A stretch of 34,821 nt of DNA from an uncultured Bacilli bacterium (GCA_947629365.1 CANRDM010000005.1:1-34821); one strand, 5' to 3'. Shown: positions 5,676-34,821, counted from the first letter of the stretch. Translations and numbers: made by a program. The notes: generated by a model not told the origin, from the letters alone.

Positions 5676-7100
5676 TTAATTAAGTGGGGCAAATTGTTTC
5701 CTTGGGGTTGTCTCATCTATTTTTTTAAATACATATCCTTTATTTTTTAAATTTTCAATTATTGTTGGTAATGCGGTAAGAGTATTTTTCTTAATATCGT
5801 GCATTAATATTATATAGTTGCCATTACCTTTAACATATTTTTTAATGGTATTTATTATATCATCAACAGAGTTGTTTTTACACGTATCACAACAATCAAC
5901 ACTCCAGTCAAAATAAGTATAACCTTTTTCAGTCATCAAACTAGCTAAAGTCGTCATTATGCCTTCTGAGTGCTTTCTACTAACGGTATTACTAGTGCCT
6001 CCGGGAAATCTAAAATATTTAGGATGAGTCCCCGTTTTATCAAATACGATTTGCTCAATTTTATTAAAATCAGCTAAGTAAGTATCAACGCTATCATAAA
6101 TATCCCATTTATGACTATATGTATGAATACCAACTGTATGACCTTCATTGTATTCTCTGGTAATTAAATCATAATATTTAGAAAATTGACCAGTTACAAA
6201 GAAAGTTGCTTTAATGTTATTTTTAGCTAAAATATCAAGGATTTTGGCAGTATATTGACCTGGGCCATCATCAAATGTTAAATAAATTGTACCATCAGTT
6301 ACATATGCAAGAGGATCATCATCTTTATCGACAACAACAACTTTTCTTTCTTTAGTAACAACATTACCATATTCATCTTTAACTTCATATTTAATTTTAT
6401 ACTCACCTAATTTAGAGGTATCTACTTTACCAGAAATTTTAATGTTTTCACTTATATCACCATCGCAAGAATCACTAGCTGTAGCTCCCTCTTCTTCATA
6501 AGCACTTCCCTCTTTTATATACATTACTTCTTGGCCATTAATACTAATAACTGGTTTTTCATTATCAACGTAATCGATGGCACTTTTAATTGTTGATTCA
6601 TTTTTTGAACTATCAGATACATTCAAAAATATTTCATCTTTCTCAATTTTAAATTTTATTTTATCAGTAATATTGCCATCATAATTATCATTAGCGGTGG
6701 CATTAATATCAATAACTTTATTATTTTTACAAGCCTTAACGTTGCCATTAAGAGTAATTTGCGGTTTAACATCATCAATAACATTAATTATTTGTATCTT
6801 AGTATTTTTTAAACCATTAGCTTTAGCTGTATAAACAATTGGGTATTTTCCTACTTTAGTTACGTCAACCTCACCGGAAACAGTAACTTTAATTTCATCT
6901 TTACCAAAAATATTTTTAACATAAGCTTTAGCTCCTAAAGGAGAATAATTTTCACCAACTCGGACTGTCACAAATACTTTATCATTTAATTCAATGCTAA
7001 TTTTAGGCAGAAAGATGCTAATAATAAGTAAAACATTAATAAATATTAAAATGGAACCAATTATAATAATCTTCTTTTTATTTTTAATACTACTTCTCAT
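5676..7100 (-). CDS. Polysaccharide deacetylase with N-terminal Ig-like (DUF5011-type) repeats
   Basis: TIYLTFDDGPGQYTAKIL, TVGIHTYSHKW, FRFPGG, ILMHDI catalytic motifs; repeats of the form GDISENIKISGKVDTSKLGEYKIKYEVKDEYGN. Confidence 0.9.
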   Translation of the reverse strand: MRSSIKNKKKIIIIGSILIFINVLLIISIFLPKISIELNDKVFVTVRVGENYSPLGAKAYVKNIFGKDEIKVTVSGEVDVTKVGKYPIVYTAKANGLKNTKIQIINVIDDVKPQITLNGNVKACKNNKVIDINATANDNYDGNITDKIKFKIEKDEIFLNVSDSSKNESTIKSAIDYVDNEKPVISINGQEVMYIKEGSAYEEEGATASDSCDGDISENIKISGKVDTSKLGEYKIKYEVKDEYGNVVTKERKVVVVDKDDDPLAYVTDGTIYLTFDDGPGQYTAKILDILAKNNIKATFFVTGQFSKYYDLITREYNEGHTVGIHTYSHKWDIYDSVDTYLADFNKIEQIVFDKTGTHPKYFRFPGGTSNTVSRKHSEGIMTTLASLMTEKGYTYFDWSVDCCDTCKNNSVDDIINTIKKYVKGNGNYIILMHDIKKNTLTALPTIIENLKNKGYVFKKIDETTPRKQFAPLN

Positions 7101-29039: not shown

Positions 29040-29678
29040 CTAATTTGTTAAATATTCTCTTAACTTATCAATACTTTTTTTCTCATATCTTGAAACCATT
29101 ACTTGGGTCATATTAAGTTTTCTTGCTACTTCACTTTGAGTTAAATCTTCAAAATATCTTGATTTAATAATATTTTTCTCATCATCATTTAACACTTCAA
29201 AACTATCATTAATAAATATTTTTGTATCTAAATCTTCACTTTTACCTATACATTCATAAATAGATTTATCAAAATCATTTTCACTATCAAGTGATAGAAT
29301 AATATTAGCACTATTACAAGCACTTTCTACCATTTCTAAACTAATATCTAAAAATTCTGATAGTTCTAAATTACTTGGTATTTTACCTAATTTTTGAGCT
29401 AAAGTATATCTTGCTTCTTCTATTTTCTTATAAAGATTTAAAATGTCTTTACTAACTTTAATATTTTTATTACTAGCAAGTAAATACATCTCACCAAAAA
29501 TATAATCGTGAGCATAAGTAGAAAATTTAGTTTTACCATCTTTTCGATAATTTTTTAAAGCTTTTAAAAGACCAACTACTCCCGCTTGGAATAAATCATC
29601 ACTACTTGTTCCATAGAAATGACTAGCTATTTTCCAAATCAATTTTTCATTATCTTTTATTATCTTTTCATAGTCCAT
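29040..29678 (-). CDS. sigF: Sporulation sigma factor, SigF/SigG type
   Basis: DDLFQAGVVGLLKALKNYRKDGKTKFSTYAHDYIFGEM; LTQSEVARKLNMTQVMVSRYEKKSIDKLREYL; synteny spoIIAA-sigma-spoVA. Confidence 0.85.
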   Translation of the reverse strand: MDYEKIIKDNEKLIWKIASHFYGTSSDDLFQAGVVGLLKALKNYRKDGKTKFSTYAHDYIFGEMYLLASNKNIKVSKDILNLYKKIEEARYTLAQKLGKIPSNLELSEFLDISLEMVESACNSANIILSLDSENDFDKSIYECIGKSEDLDTKIFINDSFEVLNDDEKNIIKSRYFEDLTQSEVARKLNMTQVMVSRYEKKSIDKLREYLTN

Positions 29679-29681
29679 CCT

Positions 29682-30014
29682 TTACACCTCAATTAAATTT
29701 ACTAATTCTCCTTCCGTAGTCTTAGTTTTAATATGTAAGTGTTTAAGGCTTAACTCAAAGTCTTTTTTAATGCCACATAAGTATATATGACCTTTATTGC
29801 AACGAGTAGTACATTTAACATTTAGAATGGCATTTATACCAGTATTATCAATTTCTTTCAAGTTTTCTAAATTAATAATAACCCTTTTTAAATGATGCTT
29901 CTTAATAACAGGAATAATATAATTATTTAATTTATAACTACTCTTCCTATTTAAAGTACCATCTAATCTAATAAAGAAAATGCCTCTTTCATATTCTAAA
30001 TCCATTTTTAACAT
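29682..30014 (-). CDS. spoIIAA: Anti-sigma factor antagonist (STAS domain), SpoIIAA-like
   Basis: FIRLDGTLNRKSSYKLNNYIIPVIKKHHLKRVIINLENLKEIDNTGINAILN; start set at ATG 30014 behind an AGGTG RBS. Confidence 0.82.
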   Translation of the reverse strand: MLKMDLEYERGIFFIRLDGTLNRKSSYKLNNYIIPVIKKHHLKRVIINLENLKEIDNTGINAILNVKCTTRCNKGHIYLCGIKKDFELSLKHLHIKTKTTEGELVNLIEV

Positions 30015-30065
30015 ACATTCACCTGCTATTATAATATAGAACATATTTTAATAAATTTAAACAAC

Positions 30066-30085
30066 TTCGACAAATGATGTCAAAA
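30066..30085. promoter_or_regulatory. Spo0A-box-like inverted motif upstream of spoIIAA
   Basis: TTCGACAAATGATGTCAAAA; TTTGTCGAA on the transcribed strand, matching the Spo0A box TGTCGAA. Confidence 0.6.
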
Positions 30086-30093
30086 GAAGACAA

Positions 30094-30118
30094 AAAAAGG
30101 AAGGAATAATTCCTTCCA
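30094..30118 (-). terminator. Terminator of surface-protein gene 1
   Basis: On minus: TTGGAAGGAATTATTCCTTCCTTTTTTTG. Confidence 0.8.
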
Positions 30119-30140
30119 AAGAGTTAAGTCTATGAGGTTT

Positions 30141-32007
30141 TTACGAGTTTCCCTTCTCGAGTTGTGTTTTTTCTATTATGAATGGGTCTGCTGAAGTCCC
30201 AGAACCGAAGGAAATCAAAGTATCAGCCGAAAGGTAGAAGACGGGGCGAACCGAATACTGGGCATTTAATTGCGAGCTAACAGGTGCACTCGACGAACTC
30301 ACTGCCCAGTCATAGAAAAAGGCTGCCAATCCTTCGTAGGTTCTAGTCATCGTCCATTCTCCGTAGTCGTTTTCGAAACTAACTCCTTTATTTTGGAGAG
30401 CTAACCAACTCTCCCAACAATGGTCTTTGTTGCAGTTTGTATTAGAAGAATCTAATCCATCTGATGCATATGAGTAGTAAAGATCACTTACAAACATTAA
30501 TCCCACTTTAGCCTGAACACTATAAATGGAATATCTTTCATGATTATATAGGTTGTCAGCACTAGTCTTTACATATTCCAGTACCATTATTATCACCTGC
30601 ATTGCAAGCACCAACAAAGCGATACATATCATCATTATATGTTGAGCTATCTTTAGATGACTCTCCCAGTATACTATCACTTAATCCATTTGGCTTATTA
30701 TTACCAGTAATTAAATCTTTACCTGTTATTCCCTTTTTATCTGTTGTTACAATTACGCTTGGATTATTTGTACTATACCTTCCTGAACCATCTCTTACTC
30801 TTGCTTCTATTGTATATGCTGTTCCTTCTTCTAATGCTGTTCCATCATCTAAAATACTTATTGTACACTCACCATTTGGTTCTGCATCGGTCCAATTATT
30901 TTGATCATTTATTTTACATTGTCTTTCTATTATTCCTGTTTTATCTATTTCGTTCCCCACTGCTACTGTTATACTATCTGTTGTTTTACTTTTCTCTTCT
31001 ATTCCTGCTGTTGGATTTTGCAAATCTAATGTTATTGTTTTAGTTGATATTGTGGATTCATTACCTGCCTTATCTTTTACTTTTATACTTAAGGTTTTTA
31101 TTCCTTCACTTTCAGTTAAATTATATTCTTTTTTCGTTATTTCTTTTTCTATAGTTTCTAGATAACTACAACCACTATTTTCATATACACAATAACTTTC
31201 TATATTTTCTTCTGTTATATTTGCATTATATGTTATATCTTTTGTATGGGTATATGTTTCATTATTACTTAATTGTTGTCCTTCATCTGCTGTTCCGGTT
31301 AATGTAAATGTATTTATTACAGGTTTTGTTTTATCTACTGTTATGCTTTTTGTTTGTACTTCTGATATATTATTTGCTTTATCTTTTAAATATATGTGTA
31401 ATGTTTTTTGTCCATCTTTGTTATCCTTCAATGAATAACTATTTGACTCAGCTAGTGAATACCAATTACAATTATCATTACCTTCTGTTTCATTTATACA
31501 ATATTGTTTTACATCTTCTTCTGTATCTGTATATTCTACTGTAAATGGTAAACTATCTGTTTGATATGTAAAGTCATTATTTAATTCTTGATTACTATTT
31601 GTTTTTCCCTTTATTTCAAAATCAGTTATAATTGGTGCTTCATTCTTATCAAAGTATAAATTACAATAAATTGTATTACTACTTTCTATTGTTATACTTC
31701 CATCTATTATTTCATTTACTAAATTTTGTGTTGGTTTATAACTTGTTTCTTTGCCATTATAATCATAACATACCGTTTTAGTTGTATTTAATAAATAGCC
31801 TTGACTAGGAAATGATTCACTACTTGATGGATTATAATCTTCACTTCCAACTGATTGTTGTAAATATATATTAAATTCTTTTCTTTCTATTTTTATTACT
31901 TTATTTTTTTCTACTATATTATTATCTTTTTTTAATATTAAAAATATATTTAATATTAATAACAATATTATTACAATTACTATTCCTACTCTTTTATTCT
32001 TATTCAT
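30141..32007 (-). pseudogene. Surface protein 1: N-terminal anchor, Ig/FN3-like repeats and a C-terminal SVRPVFYL-type domain, split by a frameshift
   Basis: ORF 30562-32007 (start MNKNKRVG behind AGGAGAG) ends ...GTGICKD-stop; ORF 30141-30680 continues in another frame as TSADNLYNHERYS...WTMTRTYEGLAAFF...YSVRPVFYLSADTLISFGSGTSADPFIIE. Confidence 0.65.
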
Positions 32008-32026
32008 AGATACTCTCCTAATCTTC

Positions 32027-32136
32027 ACGGCACAATTGTCATATTTATAAATTACCACAGCACGGCATAAATGTCAAGATGAGAAACCGGCTTTTGTGCC
32101 GTTGGAAAGAAAATATAATTATGACATAATTGCCGT
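32027..32136. promoter_or_regulatory. Operator array for the divergent XRE regulator
   Basis: ACGGCA-N4-TGTCA at 32027 (+), 32062 (+) and 32120-32136 (-), plus half-site GTGCCGT at 32096. Confidence 0.65.
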
Positions 32137-32147
32137 AGGTGAGTATA

Positions 32148-32339
32148 ATGTTTAAAGAATATAGAAAATTAAGAAAATATACACAAGAATATCTAGCTGA
32201 ATTAACTAATTTAGATACAAGAACAATTCAAAGAATAGAAAACGAAGAGAAAAAACCTTCGATTGATACTTTTAGAAAGTTAGTCAAAGCCTTAGAAATT
32301 AAAGATAAAGATATTTTAGATTATATAAAAAATAATTAA
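32148..32339 (+). CDS. XRE-family helix-turn-helix regulator (63 aa)
   Basis: MFKEYRKLRKYTQEYLAELTNLDTRTIQRIENEEKKPSIDTFRKLVKAL; AGGTGAG RBS. Confidence 0.92.
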   Translation: MFKEYRKLRKYTQEYLAELTNLDTRTIQRIENEEKKPSIDTFRKLVKALEIKDKDILDYIKNN

Positions 32340-32349
32340 TGATTTATTG

Positions 32350-32369
32350 CCAGCTTAGCTGGTTTTTTT
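32350..32369 (+). terminator. Terminator after XRE gene
   Basis: CCAGCTTAGCTGGTTTTTTT. Confidence 0.85.
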
Positions 32370-32386
32370 ATTTACATAAAATAAGG

Positions 32387-32446
32387 AAGGAATAATTTCC
32401 TTCCAAAGAGTTAAGTCTATGAGGTTTTTACGAGTTTTCCTTCTCG
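32387..32446 (-). repeat. Second copy of the surface-protein 3' tail plus terminator
   Basis: GAGAAGGAAAACTCGTAAAAACCTCATAGACTTAACTCTTTGGAAGGAAATTATTCCTTCC on minus, near-identical to about 30094-30157. Confidence 0.85.
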
Positions 32447-32474
32447 GAATTTATTTTATATATTATTGAAAATA

Positions 32475-34334
32475 TTATTGCTTTCTCTCTGCTTCTTTAT
32501 AACAAACTAGATTACTTGTCCCACTATTTGATAATTCACTCCAACCAGAATCACAAGAATAAACTTCTTCATCATAGCTCCCTATACTTCCAAGCTCTTC
32601 CGTTTTAACGCATGCACTCTCACAACTATCTTGATCGGAATATTCTACTTTATTAAGACTGCATTTCGAAACCTGTTGCACTTCTACTGGACTTTTTCGA
32701 TCAATGCACATTAGCGAGCAAGTGTCGTAGTCATATATCTTGTTATCAAAACTGCATTGAGCATATTTTAATTCTCTGTCGGTAGGACTACATGAAAAGT
32801 AACGGTAACATCTACCAAAAGTGTCTAGGTAGTAAGAATCATCGCACACATTTTTGTAAGAATTAGTACACGTCCCCTTTGTTTCTTTACTACAGGCAGA
32901 CTTAGCGGCAATCTCAGATTCATATTTAACTGAAGGCTCAACGCTACATGTCCAGTAAGTAACTAAAGAAGATTTACCATTACTTTTACAAATCCATCCC
33001 TTTTGTTCATCAAAAGCTAAATCTCCACCTATATTATTACAAGTATATTCAAATTGGGTTGTAACTTCTATACTTGGATTATTTGTACTATACCTTCCTG
33101 ATGCATCTCTTACTCTTCCTTCTATTGTATATTCTTGACCATCTTTTAATTCTTGCCCATCTGATAATTTATCTATTGTACAACTTCCATCTTCTTCTGC
33201 ATTCGTCCAATTATCTGTTCCATTTAATCTACATTGTTGTTCTATTATACTACTATTTGGTGTTTTATCTTCTCCACTTACTGTTACCGTTATACTATTT
33301 GTTGTTTTACTTTTCTCTTCTATTGTTGATGTTGGATTTTGCAAATCTAATGTTATTGTTTTAGTTGAATTGATATCAACAACAGATTCATTTCCTGCCT
33401 TATCTTTTACTTTTATACTTAAGGTTTTTATTCCTTCACTTTCAGTTAAATTATATTCTTTTTTCGTTAATTCTTTTTCTATAGTTTCTTCATAATTACA
33501 ACCACTATTTTCATATACACAATAACTTTCTATATTTGTTTCATTTATACTTGCATTATATGTTATATTTGGCTTATGTGTATATTGTGCACTATTACTT
33601 AATGTTTGATTTTCATCTGAGGTTCCTGTTAATGTAAATGTATTTATTACAGGTTTTGTTTTATCTACGGTTATGGTATATTGACTCACTCCTGATATAT
33701 TATTTGCTTTATCTTTTAAATATATATACATTGTTTTTAATCCATCTGTTTTATCTATTAATGTATATGTACCTTTTGTTCCACTTAATGTTTGCCAATT
33801 ACAATTATCACTACCTTCTGTTTCATTTATACAATATTGTTTTACATCTTCTTCTGTATCTGTATATTCTATATTAAATGGTAAACTATCTGTTTGATAG
33901 GTAAACCCATTATTTAATTCTTGATTACTACTTGTTTTTCCTTTTACATTAAAAGTAGTTATTGTTGGCTTTTCATTTTTATCAAAATATAAATTACAAT
34001 AAGTTGTTTTATTACTTTCTATTGTTATACTTCCATCTATTATTTCATTTACTAAATTTTGTGTTGGTTTATAACTTGTTTCTTTGCCATTATAATCATA
34101 ACATACCGTTTTAGTTGTATTTAATAAATAGCCTTGACTAGGAAATGATTCACTACTTGATGGATTATAATCTTCACTTCCAACTGATTGTTGTAAATAT
34201 ATATTAAATTCTTTTCTTTCTATCTTTATTACTTTATTTTTTTCTACTATATTATTATCTTTCTTAAATATTAAAAATACATTTAATATTAATAACAATA
34301 TAATAACTCCTACTATATAGCCTTTATTTTTCAT
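32475..34334 (-). CDS. Surface protein 2: paralogous N-terminus and Ig/FN3-like repeats with a Cys-rich C-terminal cassette
   Basis: Start MKNKGYIVGV behind GGAGGAG; N-terminal ~400 aa closely matches surface protein 1; C-terminus TCNNIGGDLAFDEQKGWICKSN... unrelated. Confidence 0.85.
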   Translation of the reverse strand: MKNKGYIVGVIILLLILNVFLIFKKDNNIVEKNKVIKIERKEFNIYLQQSVGSEDYNPSSSESFPSQGYLLNTTKTVCYDYNGKETSYKPTQNLVNEIIDGSITIESNKTTYCNLYFDKNEKPTITTFNVKGKTSSNQELNNGFTYQTDSLPFNIEYTDTEEDVKQYCINETEGSDNCNWQTLSGTKGTYTLIDKTDGLKTMYIYLKDKANNISGVSQYTITVDKTKPVINTFTLTGTSDENQTLSNSAQYTHKPNITYNASINETNIESYCVYENSGCNYEETIEKELTKKEYNLTESEGIKTLSIKVKDKAGNESVVDINSTKTITLDLQNPTSTIEEKSKTTNSITVTVSGEDKTPNSSIIEQQCRLNGTDNWTNAEEDGSCTIDKLSDGQELKDGQEYTIEGRVRDASGRYSTNNPSIEVTTQFEYTCNNIGGDLAFDEQKGWICKSNGKSSLVTYWTCSVEPSVKYESEIAAKSACSKETKGTCTNSYKNVCDDSYYLDTFGRCYRYFSCSPTDRELKYAQCSFDNKIYDYDTCSLMCIDRKSPVEVQQVSKCSLNKVEYSDQDSCESACVKTEELGSIGSYDEEVYSCDSGWSELSNSGTSNLVCYKEAERKQ

Positions 34335-34343
34335 AAACTCCTC

Positions 34344-34430
34344 CATTAATGATATCACTATGTTATCACTAAAATGATAACATAATATTATCACTTTGTA
34401 AATATTAAATTTGTTAGCGATATGATATCA
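34344..34430. promoter_or_regulatory. Candidate operator region for the RHH regulator
   Basis: Palindrome ATGTTATCACTAAAATGATAACAT flanked by AATGATATCA and TGATATCATT copies. Confidence 0.55.
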
Positions 34431-34448
34431 TTATTGCGAGGTGGAATG

Positions 34449-34616
34449 ATGGATAATAAGGTAGCTACTTTAATAAGAATAGAAGAAGAAATATATGAAG
34501 AAATAAAAGAAATTGCAGCTGAAGAAAACCGTAGTTTTAATAAACAAGTTGAATTTATTTTAAAAAATTTTATTGAACAATATAGAAATAAAGAAGAAGA
34601 AAATAAAAATAAATAA
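34449..34616 (+). CDS. Ribbon-helix-helix (Arc-like) DNA-binding protein
   Basis: KVATLIRIEEEIYEEIKEIAAEENRSFNKQVEFILKNFIEQY; GAGGTGG upstream of ATGATG. Confidence 0.85.
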   Translation: MDNKVATLIRIEEEIYEEIKEIAAEENRSFNKQVEFILKNFIEQYRNKEEENKNK

Positions 34617-34617
34617 T

Positions 34618-34648
34618 TAAAAGTTCTAGTCACCATCTAGAACTTTTC
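34618..34648. terminator. Bidirectional terminator hairpin
   Basis: AAAAGTTCTAGTCACCATCTAGAACTTTT. Confidence 0.75.
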
Positions 34649-34821
34649 TTATGTCTTCTTTTGTACTATTTACCATATTCTCATCTGGCATCATCACATA
34701 TAATGTTTGACTAGGTACTGAATAAGTATATTCTCTTCCATCAGTACCATTTAAAATAACACTTTCTATTTGCCAATTTCTTCTTTTAATTAATTCTCTT
34801 TTAATAAAACTAAATATAGTA
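34626..34821 (-). CDS. Partial CDS running off the window edge, unknown function
   Basis: Open frame ...FSFIKRELIKRRNWQIESVILNGTDGREYTYSVPSQTLYVMMPDENMVNSTKEDIRKVLDGD-stop; not in the ORF track. Confidence 0.6.
   Translation of the reverse strand, partial: TIFSFIKRELIKRRNWQIESVILNGTDGREYTYSVPSQTLYVMMPDENMVNSTKEDIRKVLDGD

Follow-up and report, generated by a model that had tools for sequence, protein, structure and literature searches.

Multigene variation of bacterial surface proteins has been studied mainly in pathogens, in Neisseria, Borrelia and Treponema. The pilE/pilS and vlsE systems have one expressed locus and silent donors that lack promoters, and the C-type-lectin-like fold is a known target fold of diversity-generating retroelements (DGRs). 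The TvpA family of Treponema denticola consists of dispersed surface proteins of this fold, diversified from one template repeat by a reverse transcriptase (RT) acting in trans (PMC4891356), and the tentaclins, phage proteins that are likewise DGR targets, carry a related domain (PMC10743442). Here we describe a family of surface proteins from an uncultured Bacilli bacterium, seen first as two tandem genes, A and B, at positions 30,141 to 34,334 of a 34,821-nt stretch of DNA (GCA_947629365.1, CANRDM010000005.1:1-34821; the window), which is a whole contig of G000, a 1.14-Mb metagenome-assembled genome (MAG), 88% complete. Named relatives are MAGs of uncultured Bacilli assembled from rabbit gut samples. 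The proteins have an N-terminal signal anchor, an Ig/FN3-like stalk and a C-terminal tip of one of two classes, class 1 predicted to be C-type-lectin-like and class 2 Cys-rich. We consider it likely that A and B are copies of a dispersed stalk-and-tip family in which regulators, and in a subclade also a 3' element, stay bound to chromosomal slots while the gene bodies recombine.

Slots were compared between G000 and a sister species, G036, at matching chromosomal places, eight of which have comparable tips. The slot flanks are 87-98% identical (mostly 94-98%) and the tips are without DNA similarity; identity drops at the start codon and not merely at the tip, which argues that exchange involves the gene body as a whole. 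Neither stalk nor tip shows a slot effect: stalks of the same slot share 56-65% amino acid identity, against a mean of 57.7 for different slots, and same-class tips of the same slot share 34-45%, against a mean of 40.3. Tip class has switched in three of the eight slots, and the tips of the other five rank 4th to 11th of 15 against all tips. The two species retain slots and regulators while the gene body is replaced and homogenised, and slot and protein identity are uncoupled. One stalk pair (C2/L089) is 96% identical over 1283 nt yet has different downstream flanks, but both contigs start at the gene and the pair could be a chimera. The initial annotation, made from the window alone, had proposed cassette exchange at the tips of otherwise conserved proteins; the recombination is well supported, but what is exchanged appears to be the gene body rather than the tip alone. 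Its idea would then be right in spirit and too narrow in extent, supported as evolutionary recombination; nothing here shows programmed switching within a strain. The uniform divergence without further paralogues that it had set against exchange does not describe this family, in which paralogues are many and divergence is non-uniform.

Gene A consists of a signal anchor and a stalk of Big_13 repeats (30562..32007, minus strand; ATG at 32007, open reading frame (ORF) 30562-32058; Pfam Big_13, E=1.1e-6), and gene B of a signal anchor, a stalk and a class-2 tip (32475..34334, minus strand; ATG at 34334, ORF 32475-34394; paralogue searches). Both genes are present as first described, and their stalks are identical at 1083 of 1262 nucleotides (85.8%). 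Identity in 60-nt windows falls abruptly past the motif RYSTNNPS, again as first noted, from 65-100% in the stalk to 32-58%. The tips do diverge, but the sequence that follows the C-termini is not unrelated, as homology resumes at the 3' end (30092-30179 and 32379-32466, 82% identical). The longest identical run between the stalks is 211 nt (31680..31890 in A and 34013..34223 in B, both minus strand), against a maximum of 85 nt in 5000 permutations of the mismatches, which rules out chance; its natural reading would be a recent conversion tract. In a tree of stalks the sequences cluster by genome (4 changes, compared with 7.9 when shuffled), and run and clustering together show gene conversion between paralogues of the kind known for pilE and vlsE. 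The near-identical N-terminal stretch of A and B, first taken for a fixed part of the proteins, is better attributed to such local conversion. Plain duplication, with copies then diverging by point mutation under strong diversifying selection and without any exchange, would account for the fast evolution of stalks and tips and for the hypervariability of the tips. It is hard to reconcile with flanks mostly ~95% identical around stalks and tips that diverge so far with no slot effect, with the three switches of tip class, or with a 211-nt identical run amid 86% identity and stalks that group by genome, and we regard it as very unlikely.

Several points weigh against recombination of gene bodies between fixed slots. 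The main caution is that all the genomes are MAGs: many family genes end at contig ends and single junctions could be chimeric, for several slots the comparison covers a single flank, and for two it depends on contig joins that were inferred. No near-identical donor and recipient tips were found within a genome, and no recent tip transfer was caught. The slots are also imperfectly fixed, as the type of regulator beside gene A stands at another place in G036 (nrdG-murD), and the C45 slot is without upstream similarity around its regulator. If the pattern were an assembly artefact, produced by chimeric joins between repeats in metagenome bins, copies at contig ends and a frameshift such as that in A would be expected. 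However, one 34.8-kb contig contains both A and B, at least seven species whose genomes were assembled separately show the same layout, and two of the slots (C23/L082 and C9/L084) are crossed on both sides by single contigs; an artefact of this kind is highly improbable.

The regulators are genes for small DNA-binding proteins, usually XRE-type and sometimes ribbon-helix-helix, which in G000 and G036 lie divergently upstream of nearly every copy, about 60-160 nt away. Among loci with upstream DNA available, an adjacent regulator is found at 8 of 9 in G000, 15 of 16 in G036 (14 by Pfam), 10 of 10 in G003 and 5 of 5 in G006, most of those in G003 and G006 being recognised by similarity and not scanned; the C52/L097 slot, with no regulator, is an exception. 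Regulators differ among slots, and within a slot they are 94-100% identical between G000 and G036 where compared, and 77-94% identical to those of other species. That of gene A is a divergent XRE-type helix-turn-helix protein (32139..32339, plus strand; Pfam HTH_3, E=2.3e-14), 97% identical to its counterpart at L092 in G036 and 83% to the one found in G006 at this spoIIAA site. Its likely operators are TGACAnTTnTGCCGT-like half sites in both orientations at 32062..32136, forming inverted repeats 32062-32076/32122-32136 and 32062-32071/32093-32102. Gene B is preceded by a divergent ribbon-helix-helix protein (34422..34616, plus strand; Pfam RHH_4, E=2e-4, below the curated cut-off), whose likely operators are TGATAACA-type palindromes and repeats at 34350..34393, comprising an inverted repeat with 19-nt arms and direct repeats. 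The regulators are repressor-like and would switch the surface genes. No signature of an invertible promoter is seen: upstream of A and B there are only operator-sized repeats, and 29500-34821 holds no long, near-perfect inverted repeats. In the literature, one narrow search turned up no account of a surface-protein family of this sort with private regulators.

At the other end of the gene, copies in G000 and G036 finish with a nearly invariant 40-nt block, kept whether it falls inside the reading frame or outside; a terminator-like hairpin, variable in sequence, comes next. The element of A (30117..30161, minus strand; covariance model R1, E=8.2e-16) has the stem CGAG/CTCG with loop AAGGGAAA, then TAAAAACCTCATAGACTTAACTC, and that of B lies wholly past the stop codon (32404..32448, minus strand; same model, E=3.4e-16); by sequence, terminator-like hairpins with T-runs follow at 30092..30117 and 32378..32404, respectively, on the same strand. 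Across species the 4-bp stem varies in step (CGAG/CTCG, CGTC/GACG, TGAC/GTCA) around a constant loop. Compensatory two-sided changes occur in three of the four stem pairs, as in a structured RNA element, and 98.5% of stem cells are paired, compared with 7-52% in slid controls of the structure tested. In G005 and G023 a shortened element is present (L157, L159, L167; CGTC-AACGAA-GACG-TTAAAATAGA..ACTTAACCC), from which the loop GG and a downstream CC have been lost together. This hints at a pseudoknot between the two, with which the sequences are compatible, although the pairs never vary where they are present. Among 38 species, the covariance model gives clear matches to the element in 7 and weak ones in three more, with 14 places in G000, 26 in G036, 21 in G060, 22 in G003, 18 in G031 and 13 in G029. 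Rfam contains no match to it, the best chance matches (E 0.46) lying elsewhere. When one genome per GTDB species was scanned for the exact pattern, the only matches were in these rabbit MAGs.

This common 3' block could suggest that antigenic variation is programmed as in pilE/pilS or vlsE, with a single expression copy, silent donors and the element as the downstream homology block. Homology does flank the tip on both sides, the block follows every copy almost unchanged, and two loci, C18 and C21, are orphan tails. But where the 5' end can be read, almost every copy comes with a start, a signal anchor and a regulator of its own, leaving no silent array, and there are no near-identical tip pairs. 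The orphan tails represent two further slots from which the gene has been mostly lost in G000; as G036 has intact genes at those sites, they are better read as the remains of lost genes. We therefore hold programmed variation of this type to be quite unlikely, and return to recombination of gene bodies between slot-bound ends.

Alignment of paralogues shows class-1 tips to be homologous versions of a single domain, highly variable but conserved at its end, VRPVFYL...GSGTSxDPFII, so the unrelated tip cassettes first proposed give way, in this class, to a single hypervariable domain. Its AlphaFold model has a predicted local distance difference test score (pLDDT) of 89.6. The best Foldseek match in the PDB is the C-terminal domain of Legionella Lcl (prob 0.89, E 0.036), with C-type lectins next, and in BFVD viral DUF6273 proteins are matched with prob 1.0. 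Class-1 tips are accordingly predicted to be C-type-lectin-like binding domains, a call drawn from the consistent list of matches and the viral matches, the PDB E-values being weak. Despite the fold match to DUF6273 proteins, the Pfam DUF6273 model gave no match at E<=1 among the class-1 proteins scanned. At one locus in G000 (L271, C17:3711-4448) the 3' element that normally comes right behind a class-1 tip is missing, and the longest ORF there contains little that can be recognised as stalk. Class-2 tips combine a conserved Cys framework and conserved ends with a hypervariable centre (12-sequence alignment). That of B, 195 amino acids (32475..33062, minus strand; same alignment), is Cys-rich as the initial annotation had it. 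Its closest relatives are 50% identical in G003 and 49% in G036, and since it is about equally near to G003 and to the sister species, tip lineages appear to predate the species split. The AlphaFold model of B's tip has a pLDDT of 89 but a predicted template modelling score of 0.5, and Foldseek gave no meaningful match for this class. Phage-borne donors were considered and set aside, the 3' element and the class-2 tip both being unmatched in IMG/VR.

The class-1 fold directs attention to DGRs, and these do occur among relatives. In G155, of another genus in the same family, a class-1 gene stands beside a template repeat and genes for an Avd-like protein and an RT, and template and variable region differ at 15 of 28 A but at 2 of 67 other positions. 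Within the genus a DGR-type RT (IGNMTSQ motif) is found in about 16 of 38 species; N-rich templates occur in G003, G006, G001 and others, and in G003 a template repeat occurs together with Avd-like and RT genes. RT and template share a genome in G003, G006 and G001. The automated template search gave many A-rich false matches in AT-rich DNA, and templates were located through the RPV/RPA coding motif and AAY-rich frames. Measured against the G003 template, the variable regions of G003 and of G029 have their mismatches mostly at A positions (p=0.009 and 1e-5, respectively). Gene A has a counterpart of the variable region (W...VRP, 22 codons; 30243..30308, minus strand), assigned by its length and anchors as in the G003 template repeat, which differs from that template at 17 of 24 template A and at 14 of 30 other positions (p=0.065). 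The variable regions of G000 and G036, three of standard length in each, show no A bias against it (ratio 1.09, p=0.27, and 0.98, respectively). Searches of G000, G036 and G031 (the last two 94% complete) yielded no DGR RT; the RTs of G000 are retron-like and group-II-type only, and no exhaustive template search was made there. With no such RT in an 88% complete assembly and no A bias, a DGR in the window's own genome was rejected. Some T. denticola strains that lost the DGR core likewise retain target genes (PMC4891356), and here the DGR is apparently a second source of tip variation, lost in the lineage of G000.

It is fairly unlikely that the tip differences are made by a DGR acting in trans on all slots. 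The class-1 fold, the adenine-specific pair in G155, the frequency of the RT in the genus, the complete set in G003 and the A-biased mismatches in G003 and G029 would all agree with it. Nevertheless no such RT was found in three genomes with the family, 88-94% complete, the few testable variable regions of G000 and G036 carry no A bias, and a DGR can alter neither tip class nor stalk.

DGR operons of G003, G023 and G004 (L290, L293, L299) contain a small ORF resembling the MutS N-terminal domain before Avd and, after the RT, a conserved ORF of 89-101 amino acids to which no function is assigned. In G001 (L306, 1-560) two tandem template-repeat-like copies, differing at a few positions, lie upstream of a single DGR RT. 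The 3' element is found also behind the DGR operon of G003, a position that fits a regulon tag; as G006 has a DGR without the element, it is not the DGR target signal. In G000 a lone retron-like RT (L049:1196-2203, C16) lies between alanine racemase-like and GTPase (der-like) genes, with orthologues in 13 of 38 genus species, and a group-II-type RT (L050:7385-9481, C3) has RVT_N, GIIM and an HNH-like C-terminus. Exchange driven by the retron-like RT on C16 was discarded, as that enzyme is absent from several element carriers. The same applies to the idea that the 3' element is a landing or priming site at which an RT copies tips from mRNA into other slots. In its favour is an element that is structured, hardly varies and lies immediately behind each tip as well as behind the G003 DGR operon, but with the retron-like RT so restricted, the DGR-type RT missing from G000, G036 and G031, and a DGR without the element in G006, we find the idea extremely improbable.

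A protein search of G000 gives 16 family places; 12 of them have a stalk, complete or partial but long, and two of these are probably halves of one gene. The genes are mostly single and stand beside housekeeping genes. The sister species has 20 or more stalk-bearing copies. Relatives were present in all 36 other genomes of the genus in a first search, and the same query found the family in none of 23 genomes of other genera; the class-1 tip profile reaches other genera of the same family. Gene A is itself probably broken, or else misassembled. Its stalk ORF stops soon past the junction with the tip, and the SVRPVFYL domain that the initial annotation gave it exists as a segment, but out of frame with the stalk and internally deleted on alignment with intact paralogues. 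The rest of this class-1 tip is in another ORF (30141..30680, minus strand, from the ORF list; SVRPVFYL...GSGTSADPFIIEKTQLEKGNS), with tip sequence limited to below ~30572 and the profile of intact tips matching 30168-30572. Slot A is defined by its chromosomal neighbours, ORFs for a STAS anti-anti-sigma (spoIIAA-like) protein and a sigF-like protein (29040..30044, minus strand), and in G006 the same spoIIAA-like gene begins just downstream of a family gene. The sigF-like gene comes 3 nt behind the spoIIAA-like one, with no spoIIAB (anti-sigma) ORF between them; the usual spoIIA operon carries spoIIAB at this position. Elsewhere in the window (5676-7100) a polysaccharide-deacetylase-like protein with an Ig-like N-terminal part is another likely cell-surface protein.

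We propose that recombination and gene conversion among copies, and probably also between strains, replace gene bodies between a fixed regulator and a fixed 3' end, while each private regulator would set its own slot on or off independently, so that cells would display different tips. The variable hairpin of class-1 tips may be, or may have been, additionally diversified by a DGR. The layout looks built for varying the cell surface, and its role is likely to be variation of ligand specificity or antigenicity in the gut. More tentatively, and with rather less than even confidence, we envisage a slot system of ~14-25 slots with conserved private repressors, in which bodies circulate, a common 3' RNA tag serves as a post-transcriptional regulon mark or exchange boundary, the mutator has been lost in some lineages and exchange continues. 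Two features are directly testable: conserved private regulators split from swapped bodies, and the undescribed, covarying 3' element. Since some species of the genus have a DGR and others do not, the genus offers a natural setting in which to compare recombination in the presence and absence of the mutator. A layout comparable to those of pathogens, and more elaborate, in an uncultured gut genus would suggest that surface turnover matters for commensals too, with host immunity, phages and changing ligands as possible pressures.

Set against the described systems, the family resembles TvpA in its several dispersed, surface-exposed proteins of C-type-lectin fold and, in relatives, in the single template repeat with an RT in trans (PMC4891356). 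It is unlike TvpA in that gene bodies are exchanged too, in its second, Cys-rich tip class, in having a regulator per gene and a common 3' element, and in that no DGR is seen in the window's own genome. With the tentaclins and DUF6273 proteins it shares a C-type-lectin-like, DUF6273-type domain joined to Ig-like domains, but tentaclins carry the lectin domain N-terminally (PMC10743442), whereas the A/B family is chromosomal and membrane-anchored with a C-terminal tip. As in Neisseria pilE/pilS and Borrelia vlsE (for vls, PMC11499132), a variable region lies between conserved ends, paralogues undergo gene conversion and a conserved block of 3' homology is present. In contrast to both, there is neither a single expression site nor a silent cassette array, and each slot has its own promoter region and its own regulator.

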